Program-made: the position numbers and the translations under genes
Assembly (NCBI GenBank): GCA_937864175.1
Contig: CALMJH010000041.1
Coordinates: 1-64,000 of the forward strand
DNA: 64,000 nt
Source: an uncultured Burkholderiales bacterium
GTDB lineage: Bacteria > Pseudomonadota > Gammaproteobacteria > Burkholderiales > Burkholderiaceae_A
Reading direction: 5' to 3'
Shown here: one piece after another, positions 38,373-46,679 of the stretch
Position numbering within the stretch: position 1 is the stretch's first letter
How the letters are laid out: each line of letters begins with the position of its first letter
The notes under the pieces: model-generated
What the model saw: the letters and a program-made list of their open reading frames with translations, nothing else
The model's database searches: none
Told to the model about the DNA's origin: nothing

Positions 38373-39896
38373 CTAGGCCGCTGCGGGGCCCTTTTTGGGG
38401 CCTCGGCGCCGGTTGCCTCGGTTGCCAGACCGCGGACCGGCCGGTCCGCCGCCTGGGCCCGCACCTCCAACACCACCACCGCCACCCGACATGGGCGCCC
38501 CACCGGGCCGGCCGCCAGGCGCACCAGCGAATCCACCCGGCTTTTTGCGCCGCTTATTTGCGCCACCCGGTCGTTGGGGTGCCGAGAGGTGGCCTGCAGT
38601 GGGTTTGGCCGTGCCCCAGGTGGTCTGCAGCGGGTTGGGCCGCTTGGCGCCCTGCCGCTTCTTGACGGGGCCCGCCAGCTGAGACAGGTGGGCATCGGGG
38701 CCCGAAGGCTGCCATTCGTCATCCGTGCCGTGCTCCTCGTCCCAGTCCTGCTGGTCGAGGGCCCGGTCGTGGGGGTCTTGTTGTTGTCGGGAACTAGACG
38801 ACATGGGGCCTGAGAAGGCCTCGGGACCAGGTCGCTGCCGGGCCTGCGAACGGCTCTTCTTGGGGCCGGGCCGGCTGCTAGCCGCAGACTTCAAGCCGAC
38901 CGAGGCCATCAGGGTGGCCACAGACTGCTCGTTGAGATCGGCGGATTGGCCGCGCCGCAGCGTGGGCGGCAGCGTAACCAGCCCGTATCGAATGCGGATG
39001 AGCCGGCTGACCGTTCGACCGACCGATTCGAACATGCGGCGAACCTCACGGTTGCGGCCCTCGCGGATGACCACCTTGTACCAGCGGTTGGCACCCTCGC
39101 CGCCGGCTGGTTCGATCTGGTCAAACTGGGCCGGCGACTGGCCGTCTCCCAGGTCGATGCCGGTGCGGAGTTTGTCGAGTTGCTCCTCGTCGAGTTCACC
39201 CAGAACGCGGACTGCGTACTCGCGCTCGACCTCGTTGCGAGGATGCATGAGGCGGTTGGCCAGTTCACCAGAGGTGGTAAAGAGCAACAGCCCCTCGGTG
39301 TTGACGTCCAGACGTCCGACGGTAATCCAGCGACCAAACTTGACCGAGGGAAGTTTTTTGAAGACGGTGGCCCGGTGCTGGGGGTCGGACTTGGTCACGA
39401 TTTCGCCCGCAGGCTTGTGATAGGCCAAGACCCGAACCGGAGGGGGCTGGACCCGAAACCGAATCGGCTTGCCATTGACCTTGACCTGGTCGGTGTGGCT
39501 GATGCGCTGGCCGATGTGGGCCGGCGTGCCATTGACCGAGACCCGGCCGGCAAGAATCAGCTCTTCCATCTCGCGTCTGGAACCGATGCCTGCGTCGGCC
39601 AGCACCTTGTGGAGCTTGGGAGGATCGTAGTCATTACCGGCAGGACGTGCCTCGAGCTGCTTGGCAGTCTCGGCGTCTTGCGCCAGAAACGGCAGGGGCT
39701 CCTCGGGCGTCTCGTCCAGGGTAGGCAGCTGGTCCCGGTCCTGGTACTGGTCGTCGGACTGGTGGTCGAGGGACTCCTCGAACTGGTCTAGCTCGTCATC
39801 GAGCTGGTCGTCGAGCTGGTCGTCGAGTTGATCGTCATCGTCAAGCGGATGAGCCTGGTGGCTGGGTTTGTCCAACGGGGGATCCTTTGGTGTCAT
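38373..39896 (-). CDS. rluB: 23S rRNA pseudouridine synthase RluB-type with long low-complexity tails
   Basis: Modifies helix 89 region uridine of 23S rRNA in characterised relatives. The core, about residues 90-335, has an S4 domain ([19 protein letters not shown]) and the catalytic motif [15 protein letters not shown]. The N-terminal 90 residues are acidic, with repeated DDQL units. The last about 170 residues are Pro/Gly/Lys/Arg-rich, ending in [14 protein letters not shown] and [12 protein letters not shown]. At 507 residues it is far longer than E. coli RluB (about 290). RluE/RluF-type specificity cannot be excluded. It overlaps scpB by 4 nt. Confidence 0.9.
39793..39840 (-). repeat. short tandem repeat encoding DDQL units in rluB
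   Basis: Four near-identical 12-nt units (TCGTCGAGCTGG-like on the plus strand) encode the repeated Asp-Asp-Gln-Leu of the RluB acidic N-terminus. Unit differences are mostly synonymous, so recent slippage expansion is plausible. The length is likely to vary between strains. Confidence 0.7.
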
Positions 39897-43425: not shown

Positions 43426-44949
43426 ATGGCCAGCATTCGTCAGAGCGACCTGATTCAGAGCATTCGAGATGCCTTCCAGTTCATCAGCTACTACCATCCG
43501 AAAGACTTTCTCGATGCCCTGGCCAAGGCCTACGAGCACGAGCAGAGCCCAGCCGCCCGGGATGCCATCGCCCAGATTCTGGCCAACAGCCGCATGAGTG
43601 CCGAGGGCCACCGGCCCATCTGCCAAGACACGGGCATTGCCACCGTCTTTATAAAAGTTGGCATGAAGGTCCAGTGGACCGATGCCAGCCTGTCGGTCAC
43701 CGAGATGATCAACGAGGGGGTGCGTCAGGCCTACACCCACTCGGCCAACCCACTGCGGGCCTCGGTCTTGGCAGACCCCACTGGCACCAAAAAGAACACG
43801 AAAGACAATACCCCCGCGGTGATTCACTACGAGATCGTTGAAGGCGATGGCGTGGAGGTGATTTGTGCCGCCAAGGGCGGTGGCAGCGAGGCCAAGTCCA
43901 AGCTCCAGGTCCTGAACCCCAGCGACAGCATTGCCGATTGGGTTCTCAAGACGGTGCCCACCATGGGTGCTGGCTGGTGCCCACCCGGCATCCTGGGGAT
44001 CGGCGTCGGTGGCACACCCGAGAAGGCGGCTGTTTTGGCCAAAGAGGCCCTGATGGCCCCCATAGACATGGCCGAGCTAAAGGCCCGCGGACCCCGCAAT
44101 CGCGTGGAAGAACTGCGTATTGAAATCTACGACCGGGTCAATGCGTTGGGCATCGGCGCCCAGGGCTTGGGTGGCTTGACGACGGTGCTCGACGTGAAGA
44201 TCCTCGACTACCCAACCCATGCTGCCAACCTGCCGGTGGCCATGATCCCTAACTGTGCCGCCACCCGACACATTCACTTCCATCTCGACGGCAGTGGACC
44301 GGCGGTCTTTACGCCCCCAGCCCTGTCGGACTGGCCCGATGTCACCTGGACCGCCGATGTCCAAAAGAGCCGGCGCGTCAACCTGGACACGCTGACCCCA
44401 GAGGAAGTTGCCAGCTGGGCCCCAGGTCAGACGCTTCTGCTCAATGGCCGGCTCCTCACCGGCCGAGATGCAGCCCACAAGCGCATTGCAGACATGCTGG
44501 CCCGCGGCGAAAAGCTGCCTGTCGACTTCACCAACCGGGTGATTTATTACGTCGGTCCTGTGGACCCGATTGCCGGGGAGGCTGTTGGACCAGCAGGCCC
44601 CACCACCTCCACCCGCATGGACAAGTTCACCGAGACCATGCTGGGCCAGACGGGGCTCATTGGCATGGTCGGCAAAGCCGAACGCGGCCCCGAGACAGTC
44701 GCCACCATCAAGAAATACCGCAGGGCCTACCTGATCGCAGTGGGCGGATCGGCCTATCTGGTGAGCAAGGCCATCAAGAAGTCCAGGGTCCTGGCCTTCG
44801 AAGACCTGGGCATGGAGGCGATTTACGAATTTGAGGTGCAGGACATGCCGGTCACGGTGGCCGTGGACTCCCAGGGCAATTCAGTCCACGAGACGGGCCC
44901 GAAGGAGTGGCAGGTCAAGATCGCCAATCTCAAAACCCAGGCGGCGTAG
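43426..44949 (+). CDS. fumA: class I (Fe-S) fumarate hydratase
   Basis: Interconverts fumarate and malate in the TCA cycle using an oxygen-sensitive [4Fe-4S] cluster. The 507-residue single chain joins alpha and beta regions. Candidate cluster Cys residues lie in HRPICQDTGIA and IPNCAATRHIHF, and KGGGSEAKSKLQ is a hallmark. The C-terminal beta domain has TSTRMDKFTETMLGQTGLIGMVGKAERG. GAGCC lies upstream of the ATG. The gene symbol follows the class I archetype; fumB would be equivalent. Confidence 0.94.
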   Translation: MASIRQSDLIQSIRDAFQFISYYHPKDFLDALAKAYEHEQSPAARDAIAQILANSRMSAEGHRPICQDTGIATVFIKVGMKVQWTDASLSVTEMINEGVRQAYTHSANPLRASVLADPTGTKKNTKDNTPAVIHYEIVEGDGVEVICAAKGGGSEAKSKLQVLNPSDSIADWVLKTVPTMGAGWCPPGILGIGVGGTPEKAAVLAKEALMAPIDMAELKARGPRNRVEELRIEIYDRVNALGIGAQGLGGLTTVLDVKILDYPTHAANLPVAMIPNCAATRHIHFHLDGSGPAVFTPPALSDWPDVTWTADVQKSRRVNLDTLTPEEVASWAPGQTLLLNGRLLTGRDAAHKRIADMLARGEKLPVDFTNRVIYYVGPVDPIAGEAVGPAGPTTSTRMDKFTETMLGQTGLIGMVGKAERGPETVATIKKYRRAYLIAVGGSAYLVSKAIKKSRVLAFEDLGMEAIYEFEVQDMPVTVAVDSQGNSVHETGPKEWQVKIANLKTQAA

Positions 44950-44971
44950 AAGGCAGCCGCCGGCATTCGCT

Positions 44972-45032
44972 GGGGGCCTCGGAGGGAACCGCCGGCGCTT
45001 GCCGACGGCCCCGGGGGGCCCGACTCTTTTTA
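44972..45032. terminator. GC-rich inverted repeats between fumA and the GlcG-like gene
   Basis: The 80-nt convergent gap is very GC-rich and contains several overlapping inverted repeats, including GGCCCCGGGGGGCC at 45007-45020 followed by CTCTTTTTA. It could work as a terminator for fumA, but the hairpin to T-run distance is poor and the pairing is ambiguous. Confidence 0.3.
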
Positions 45033-45437
45033 GAGACCCAAGGCGGCTACACCGGCCTTGGCGATCTGGGCGTCCTCGGTGGACTTCACATTCGAGACTC
45101 CAATTGCACCAACACAAATGCCGTCGACCATCACAGGCACACCCCCCTCGAGCATGCCCTTGAGTTCGGGGGCCGAGAGGAACGAGGTCCGACCATTGTT
45201 GATGACGTCTTCGTAGATCTTGGATTCACGCCGACCAAGGGCCGCGGTTTTGGCCTTTTCTGGGGCGATGTAGGCAGAGATGGGGGGCGCGCCCTCTAGC
45301 CGCTTGAACCAGAGCAGGTGGCCGCCGTCGTCGCAGATGGCAATGCTCACGACCCAGTTGTTTTTCTTGGCCTCTGCCTCGGCGGCAGCGCCCATGAGTT
45401 CGACATCGGCCTGGGTCAGCATGGGACGTTGTTTCAA
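45030..45437 (-). CDS. GlcG/HbpS-like (DUF336) protein
   Basis: A 135-residue protein of the GlcG/HbpS family, small cytoplasmic or secreted proteins, some of which bind heme or sense redox state. The conserved core is LTQADVELMGAAAEAEAKKNNW, then AICDDGGHLLWFKRLEGAPP and GGVPVMVDGICVGAIGVS. I place the start at TTG 45437 (MKQRPMLTQADVE) because AGGAG lies 6 nt upstream. ATG 45422 is an alternative. No signal peptide is visible. It is divergent from an iron-binding protein gene, which hints at an iron or heme link, unproven. Confidence 0.85.
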   Translation of the reverse strand: MKQRPMLTQADVELMGAAAEAEAKKNNWVVSIAICDDGGHLLWFKRLEGAPPISAYIAPEKAKTAALGRRESKIYEDVINNGRTSFLSAPELKGMLEGGVPVMVDGICVGAIGVSNVKSTEDAQIAKAGVAALGL

Positions 45438-45518
45438 GTTGGACTCCTGGAGGAATGAAGTCGCACACTCTGCCACAGGCCAAGGGTTTCGGCCTCTGGG
45501 GCTAGCCCGGGGGTCTAT

Positions 45519-45547
45519 TTGCAAATAAGAAAAGTTCGTATTAATAT
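45519..45547 (+). promoter_or_regulatory. candidate sigma-70 promoter for the iron-binding protein gene
   Basis: TTGCAA (45519-45524) and TAATAT (45542-45547) are separated by 17 bp, each with four of six consensus matches. The interval contains AATAAGAAAAGTTCGTATT, a weak palindrome with only partial resemblance to a Fur box. The predicted start is near 45554, giving a leader of about 70 nt that includes the C-rich tract. Confidence 0.45.
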
Positions 45548-45566
45548 TCACACCAAGAGATCAGAG

Positions 45567-45600
45567 CCCTACCCTACCCCCCTACCCCATCCCCCAACCC
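45567..45600 (-). other. G-tract array (potential G-quadruplex) in the leader of the iron-binding protein gene
   Basis: The minus strand carries six G-runs of 3, 5, 4, 6, 3 and 3 bases separated by two-base linkers (TT, AT, TA, TA, TA), a telomere-like (TAGGG) pattern. The plus strand, and so the mRNA leader, is correspondingly C-rich with no G. The motif meets the usual criteria for an intramolecular quadruplex on the transcription template strand. Function is unknown. Confidence 0.75.
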
Positions 45601-45623
45601 ATCCAACCGAAGCCTTGCTCCCC

Positions 45624-46679
45624 ATGAAAAACCACCTCCAAGCAAAACCCCTCCGCAGACTCATTGGCCTGGCCGTCCTGGCTGCCCTGGCCAGCCCCCT
45701 GCTGCCCAGCCCAAGCGCCCAGGCGGCCAGCGAGCTCAACCTCTACACAGCCCGCCACTACAGCAGTGACGACGCCCTCTACGAGAAATTCACCAAAGCG
45801 ACGGGTATCAAGATCAATGTCGTCAGCGCCGGCGACGAGGCCCTTTTGCAGAGAATCAAAAGCGAGGGTGCAGCGAGCCCCGGTGATGTCCTGCTGCTAG
45901 CGGATGCCTCACGGCTGGTTGCAGCCGAGCAAGAAGGCCTCTTTCAGCCCACCCAGTCGACCTTGCTCGAAAAAAGTATTCCAGCGAGCCTTCGCTCAGG
46001 CACTCTCTGGTTTGGTCTGACCACGCGAGCCCGCGTCTTGGTCATTGACCCTGCCCGGGTCAAGCCAGACGCCGTGAAGACCTATGCAGACCTGGCGAGC
46101 CCCGCCCTCAAGGGCCTGGTCTGTACCCGCACCGCCGCCCATCCCTACATGATCTCGCTCATCGCCTCGCAAGTCGCCCACCAGGGCGAAGACAAGACCG
46201 AGGCCTGGGCCAAGGGGGTTGTCGCCAACCTGGCCATGAAGCCCAAAGGGGGTGACACCGACCAGATCAAGGCTGTGGCCTCTGGTCAGTGCGGCGTCGC
46301 GGTCAGCAACAGCTACTACTACGCCCGTCTCATGCGCAGCAACAACCCCGAAGACCAGGCAGTCATTGCAAAGACCAAAGTGGTCTGGCCTGACCAGGCC
46401 GGCCGTGGCACACACATCAACGTCTCTGGTGGTGGCACTCTGAAAAACGCCCCCAACAAAGACCATGCCAAGAAGTTTCTGGAGTTTCTTGCCAGCAAAG
46501 AGGCCCAGGCCGACTTTGCCAACGGCAACAACGAATGGCCGGTCGTGGCTGGCGTCAAGACCGAGAACCCTGCCCTGACTGCGCTCGGAAAATTCAAGCG
46601 CGATCCCCAGCCCATCGCAGACTTTGCCAAGCAGATTCGGACAGCCCAGCAGATCGCAGACAAGACAGGCTGGAAGTAA
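45624..46679 (+). CDS. periplasmic Fe(III) ABC transporter substrate-binding protein
   Basis: A 351-residue binding protein of the FbpA/FutA/AfuA type. From ATG 45624 it has a signal peptide (KPLRRLIGLAVLAALASPLL... AQA, cleavage near residue 35), then ELNLYTARHYSSDDALYEKF, which is diagnostic. A late NSYYYARL supplies the tyrosines typical of iron coordination. The leader lacks a clear purine-rich ribosome site before CCCCATG. No permease or ATPase gene adjoins it, so its partner transporter must be elsewhere. It ends 2 nt before the convergent ridA-like gene. Confidence 0.9.
   Translation: MKNHLQAKPLRRLIGLAVLAALASPLLPSPSAQAASELNLYTARHYSSDDALYEKFTKATGIKINVVSAGDEALLQRIKSEGAASPGDVLLLADASRLVAAEQEGLFQPTQSTLLEKSIPASLRSGTLWFGLTTRARVLVIDPARVKPDAVKTYADLASPALKGLVCTRTAAHPYMISLIASQVAHQGEDKTEAWAKGVVANLAMKPKGGDTDQIKAVASGQCGVAVSNSYYYARLMRSNNPEDQAVIAKTKVVWPDQAGRGTHINVSGGGTLKNAPNKDHAKKFLEFLASKEAQADFANGNNEWPVVAGVKTENPALTALGKFKRDPQPIADFAKQIRTAQQIADKTGWK

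Follow-up and report, generated by a model that had tools for sequence, protein, structure and literature searches.

A statistically striking C tract next to a putative Fur-controlled promoter of an Fe(III)-binding protein gene in an uncultured Burkholderiales bacterium

We analysed a stretch of 64,000 nucleotides (hereafter the window) from an uncultured Burkholderiales bacterium, in which a gene for an Fe(III)-binding protein is preceded by six clustered C-runs. This tract is real and very unlikely to be a product of chance. Judged from sequence, it appears to lie beside an ordinary gene and an ordinary promoter, and a functional role of the tract gains no support. We consider it probable that the gene is driven by a Fur-controlled promoter followed by an unstructured, G-poor leader that acts as a spacer, that the C-runs in this leader are recent and specific to the species, and that the opposite strand's potential to form a quadruplex is a by-product. 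A statistically extreme sequence of functional appearance can be the novelty of a single species beside an element that relatives keep.

Results

The tract precedes a FutA/FbpA-type gene with a divergent HbpS-like neighbour

The gene at 45624-46679 on the plus strand encodes a substrate-binding protein of 351 amino acids of an Fe(III) ABC transporter, FutA/FbpA type. Its product matched the PDB entries 6g7n (E 2.8e-94) and 2pt1 (E 3e-94), which we take to be the FutA proteins of Trichodesmium and Synechocystis, as well as 2voz, all with E values of 1.1e-88 or better. Together with the Pfam families of substrate-binding proteins, these FutA-type matches support the assignment as an Fe(III)-binding protein made in a preliminary description of this DNA. 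No NCBIfam model scored above its cut-off for the protein. It was present in all 26 family genomes searched, and the best named protein matches, among the best 80 of 574 relatives, came from MAG records labelled Burkholderiaceae, Limnobacter, Burkholderiales and Rhodocyclaceae.

Upstream and on the minus strand lies a divergent HbpS-like gene (45030-45422; PF03928, E 8.1e-32), whose likely ATG is at 45422 and whose frame stays open to a GTG at 45551. The same divergent pair was found in 12 relative loci, five in the genus and seven in a third genus of the family; this count is what remains of 15 of 107 rows when the window's own locus and the duplicates L031 and L032 are subtracted.

The tract is far beyond chance and has intrinsic quadruplex potential

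The tract occupies 34 bases at 45567-45600 and reads CCC TA CCC TA CCCCCC TA CCCC AT CCCCC AA CCC on the plus strand, that is, six C-runs of 3, 3, 6, 4, 5 and 3 bases joined by the two-base linkers TA, TA, TA, AT and AA. The minus strand therefore carries six G-runs, GGG TT GGGGG AT GGGG TA GGGGGG TA GGG TA GGG, exactly as the preliminary description had claimed. A potential G-quadruplex calls for at least four G-runs of at least three bases with short loops; this strand has six, with loops of two. From the position of the promoter described below, we infer a 5' leader of about 70 nt (45554-45623, plus strand) that is C-rich, G-poor and nearly unstructured. The tract falls within this leader, so that its G-rich strand would be the template strand of the Fe(III)-binding protein gene, in agreement with the placement proposed earlier. 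Two further points of that description hold in part. The mRNA side had been called C-rich and free of G, which is true of the 34-base tract but not of the whole leader, which contains G; and the likeness to telomeres is confined to the CCCTA unit.

When the window was shuffled 200 times with its dinucleotides kept, no array of six runs with loops of one or two bases arose. Markov models of orders 1, 2, 3 and 5 of the 260-kb contig (C41, which consists of the window plus L112-L121), each simulated 20 times, produced none either. The tract has a mean G4Hunter score of -2.56, and the lowest value among its 25-base windows, -2.76, is the strongest of the contig. With six runs and this contig-extreme score, the intrinsic quadruplex potential that had been proposed stands. 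The surrounding composition is extreme as well: in the 60 bases 5' of the ATG, C occurs 35 times and G 5 times, and at none of the window's other first-ATG starts (50 in all) does C exceed G by as much.

We also considered the tract as one among many CCCTA repeats of the genome, and this was ruled out, as its core CCCTACCCTACCC is present in a single copy. Looser and stricter patterns were of little use here. A fixed five-run pattern with three-base runs and exact two-base gaps had no match in the bacterium's own genome and is uninformative, since it misses other run lengths, those of this tract included; a three-run pattern, with 565 and 620 overlapping hits there, is too loose.

Such a sequence on the template strand, at about +13 to +46 from the predicted start, might slow or block RNA polymerase and so tune the iron gene. 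The G4Hunter minimum of -2.76 over six runs with two-base loops speaks for this possibility, as does the folding of the bare G-strand tract at -12.6 kcal/mol when quadruplexes are allowed, a value obtained with RNA parameters only. There is also a precedent in the Deinococcales, where start sites are surrounded by an excess of potential quadruplexes on the template strand, including those of more than four runs (PMC6200779). Four-run sequences are, however, not clearly enriched in the contig, and the tract is missing from the sister species and from all other genomes searched, as detailed in the next section. We regard a quadruplex brake of this kind as unlikely.

The tract is absent from relatives

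The preliminary description had suggested that the tract could stall or tune transcription, and it had named a comparison of the leader across relatives as a check, with absence from close relatives counting against the idea. Absence is what we found. The first 29 bases of the tract, with up to three mismatches, were missing from all 10 other genomes of the genus (75-99% complete), and the core CCCTACCCTACCC was missing from all 25 other family genomes. Several comparison genomes are just 70-90% complete, but 23 of the 25 nonetheless yielded a readable leader. In the sister species, the closest relative with 87% protein identity, the promoter is kept together with the palindrome described below, and the leader (C 0.34, G 0.10) has not one run of three C's. 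With the tract absent from the sister and from every other genome of the genus and family that was searched, the proposed regulatory role finds no support. A young, species-specific regulatory element would give the same comparative picture.

We extended this comparison to 101 relative leaders, 23 from the family and 78 from wider relatives (drawn from the best 80 of 574). With the window's own leader they make 102, obtained from 104 rows by removing the duplicates L031 (the L001 leader) and L032 (the L004 leader). L010, L030 and L033 were excluded because they lack a leader, the first two accounting for the leader being readable in 24 of the 26 family genomes, own included; L012-L015, which are weak or partial matches, stand outside the set. 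At least four clustered C-runs were seen in one of the 101, L016, from another genus of the family (G014, 60% identity). Its five C-runs have longer loops, one of them GGG, and are either convergent or due to chance. Three clustered C-runs occurred in L036, L037 and L105, and at least three clustered G-runs on the mRNA strand in none of the 101.

Leaders that are rich in C and poor in G do exist elsewhere. The leader of the same gene in L008 (G008) has C 0.54 and G 0.10, with at most two clustered C-runs. The composition thus recurs and the six-run array does not. The broader idea that C-rich leaders are conserved at this gene proved to be only partly true: 15 of the 102 leaders fall in the top 5% of their own locus for C over G, and 39 of the 102 in the lowest 5% for G.

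Could the tract be an error of assembly or binning? The genome is a 1.63-Mb assembly in 88 contigs, and low-complexity sequence is prone to misassembly. However, it is embedded in a 260-kb contig, 45 kb from the nearer end, and the promoter and the gene that flank it stand together in relatives. We consider such an error extremely improbable.

A Fur-box-like palindrome within a putative promoter is what relatives keep

The preliminary description did not mention a palindrome, AATAAGAA-AAG-TTCGTATT, at 45524-45542 (plus strand), which resembles a Fur box and sits between the Fe(III)-binding protein gene and the divergent HbpS-like gene. Scored with 19-column matrices built from relatives' sites, with the own species and the sister left out and the better strand taken at each position, it ranks first of the 260,056 positions of the contig. 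It scored 19.7 against 13.9 for the second-best position with 15 family sites, and 19.3 against 12.1 with 78 wider sites. The sites in these matrices are each leader's best match to an E. coli Fur consensus, poor matches included. To this consensus the palindrome itself matches at 11 of 18 positions (shuffle p 0.115; 0.075 for the duplicate row), and 72 of 104 leader rows have a site with a shuffle p of at most 0.02. The sister species retains the palindrome with one change, and the genome encodes Fur (PF01475, E 3.9e-46).

Read from the sequence, a sigma70-type promoter is proposed at 45519-45547 on the plus strand, with TTGCAA (45519-45524) and TAATAT (45542-45547) separated by a 17-bp spacer. 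By hand count the hexamers share 8 of 12 bases with the consensus; a sigma70 scan with a threshold of 9 of 12 found no promoter. Of the 17 leaders from the first two genera, 16 have TTGC at the palindrome or ahead of it and 10 have the full TTGCAA; an AT-rich block follows. Given that the palindrome is the best of the contig by relatives' matrices and that Fur is encoded, the conserved control is most likely a Fur box inside a sigma70-like promoter.

The location of the tract relative to this promoter bears on another possibility, that the C-runs are a slippage-prone switch which varies leader length and expression between cells (phase variation). Six C's in a row and a repeated CCCTA unit are indeed present in the leader of the iron gene. 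For high-frequency slippage, however, three to six bases make a short run, and the tract is found past the proposed promoter, outside the spacer between -35 and -10. A switch of this sort seems very unlikely to us. Neisseria fetA has a phase-variable promoter with poly-C, a single long homopolymer. Both cases have C-runs close to where an iron-related gene starts; the difference is that one long homopolymer lies in the promoter there, while here several short runs lie in the leader.

The leader RNA is predicted to be unfolded

The RNA of 45555-45640 folds at -1.48 kcal/mol (z 0.40), which is no structure beyond that of shuffles. An Rfam scan of 44900-46000 returned one match, with E 2.9 and far under the gathering score; there is thus no known riboswitch or thermometer in that interval.

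The absence of a clear Shine-Dalgarno sequence before the iron gene had been noted as adding interest. The absence itself was borne out, but it is common here and adds none: of the window's 50 first-ATG starts, 15 have a Shine-Dalgarno match of at least four, leaving 35 of 50 without one, and the number rises to 26 of 50 when the start is picked for the best match. The gene starts behind these counts and behind those of C over G come from greedy open frames, which are rough and uncurated. An unfolded leader suits initiation without a Shine-Dalgarno sequence, and the modelled RNA, which is nearly unfolded, fits such initiation.

C-rich, G-poor and unstructured RNA of about 70-80 nt is also the feature on which Rho loads, and the leader has these properties in both composition and fold. 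The transcript of 45536-45657, the largest stretch of C over G in the 260-kb contig, might therefore be a rut-like loading site at which poor translation leads to early termination. Little RNA structure, a Rho gene in the genome and the similar composition of the L008 leader (C 0.54, G 0.10) point the same way. The order offers a parallel, as Bordetella belongs to the Burkholderiales. In B. pertussis the copper-responsive CruR operon, with its gene for a TonB-dependent transporter, is reported to be under Rho-dependent control set by copper (PMC9426467). The two cases share a metal-related uptake gene and, here, an encoded Rho and a C-rich, G-poor RNA; they differ in that a sensing upstream reading frame is central in the Bordetella operon (PMC9426467), whereas no such frame was noticed here and use of Rho is no more than a candidate. 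Against a Rho site, only 15 of 102 leaders reach the top 5% for C over G within their locus, and a C-rich leader is no proof of Rho loading. We judge this reading rather unlikely.

The contig shows two ordinary tendencies

An excess of C over G of at least 20 on the sense strand was found at 9 of 212 gene starts of the contig, the iron gene included, against 1.3 expected from internal positions; for the antisense strand the count was 1 against 0.5 expected. No clear enrichment is seen for potential quadruplexes taken together. The contig holds 20, compared with 16 to 17 in models of orders 2-5 and 34 in the order 1 model; three of the 20 show three long runs, one of those counted twice by the pattern. 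The window holds 4, compared with 10.2 in shuffles. Eighteen of the 20 lie on the minus strand, a bias in line with the G-C skew, which does not exceed 0.000 in any of the contig's thirteen 20-kb bins. Taken together, the excess of C over G at gene starts and the minus-strand bias of quadruplexes make the tract readable as the extreme tail of ordinary tendencies. It goes far beyond what composition predicts, so that simple drift would need a slippage step in addition. The tract is probably the extreme tail of these two tendencies plus slippage of a short C-rich unit.

A second and looser potential quadruplex, with five G-runs, lies at 45685-45720 on the minus strand, opposite signal-peptide codons of the iron gene. 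The two are separated by 84 bases on the template strand of this gene and make up two of the window's four. That two potential template-strand quadruplexes occur before and within one gene speaks against our preferred explanation, and so does the weak match of the bacterium's own palindrome to the E. coli consensus.

Discussion

The explanation we favour would work as follows. With iron bound, Fur would occupy the palindrome, which lies between the -35 and the -10 element, and so silence the iron gene and perhaps its divergent HbpS-like neighbour as well. When iron is scarce, the promoter would fire and yield the leader of about 70 nt, counted from the predicted start. This leader would be under little sequence constraint except to stay G-poor and unfolded, which would let ribosomes enter and start without a Shine-Dalgarno sequence. 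In one species it would have expanded into six C-runs, probably by slippage of CCCTA or poly-C units, and the capacity of the opposite strand to form a quadruplex would most likely be a by-product devoid of function.

This arrangement resembles Fur-regulated FbpA/FutA promoters in its protein family, its palindrome between -35-like and -10-like elements and its short leader. It departs from them in a box that matches the E. coli consensus at just 11 of 18 positions, and in a C tract found, among the genomes searched, in this species only. The template-strand quadruplexes of the Deinococcales share with the present one a G-rich template near a start site (a predicted one here) and more than four G-runs. 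Their enrichment extends across the genomes of the order (PMC6200779), in contrast to the single case here, with no clear enrichment or conservation. Among the matches listed for open-licence PMC, by titles and abstract openings, none concerned a quadruplex in a Fur-controlled iron-uptake gene, which is not proof of absence.

A more speculative reading makes the tract a new template-strand quadruplex with two spare G-runs, placed just past the predicted start and acting as a second, oxidation-sensitive brake on iron import, independent of Fur. Oxidative stress driven by iron would oxidise guanines, shift the folding and lower transcription. We draw this from a link between guanine oxidation in template-strand quadruplexes and lower transcription in mammalian cells, as given in the Deinococcales report (PMC6200779), and hold it to be highly improbable. 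Were the tract shown to have a role, the iron-regulated leader would contain a quadruplex or Rho element of recent origin, and the sister species, which lacks the tract, would serve as a natural control.

Two other repeats were seen in the contig. At 7681-7711 of L114 there is a perfect tandem repeat of GGGGTTCCA with four G-runs, located within an open frame. At 39747-39836 of the window a 12-bp unit recurs in tandem about eight times, in degenerate copies; most of this repeat lies in a long minus-strand open frame (38373-39896).
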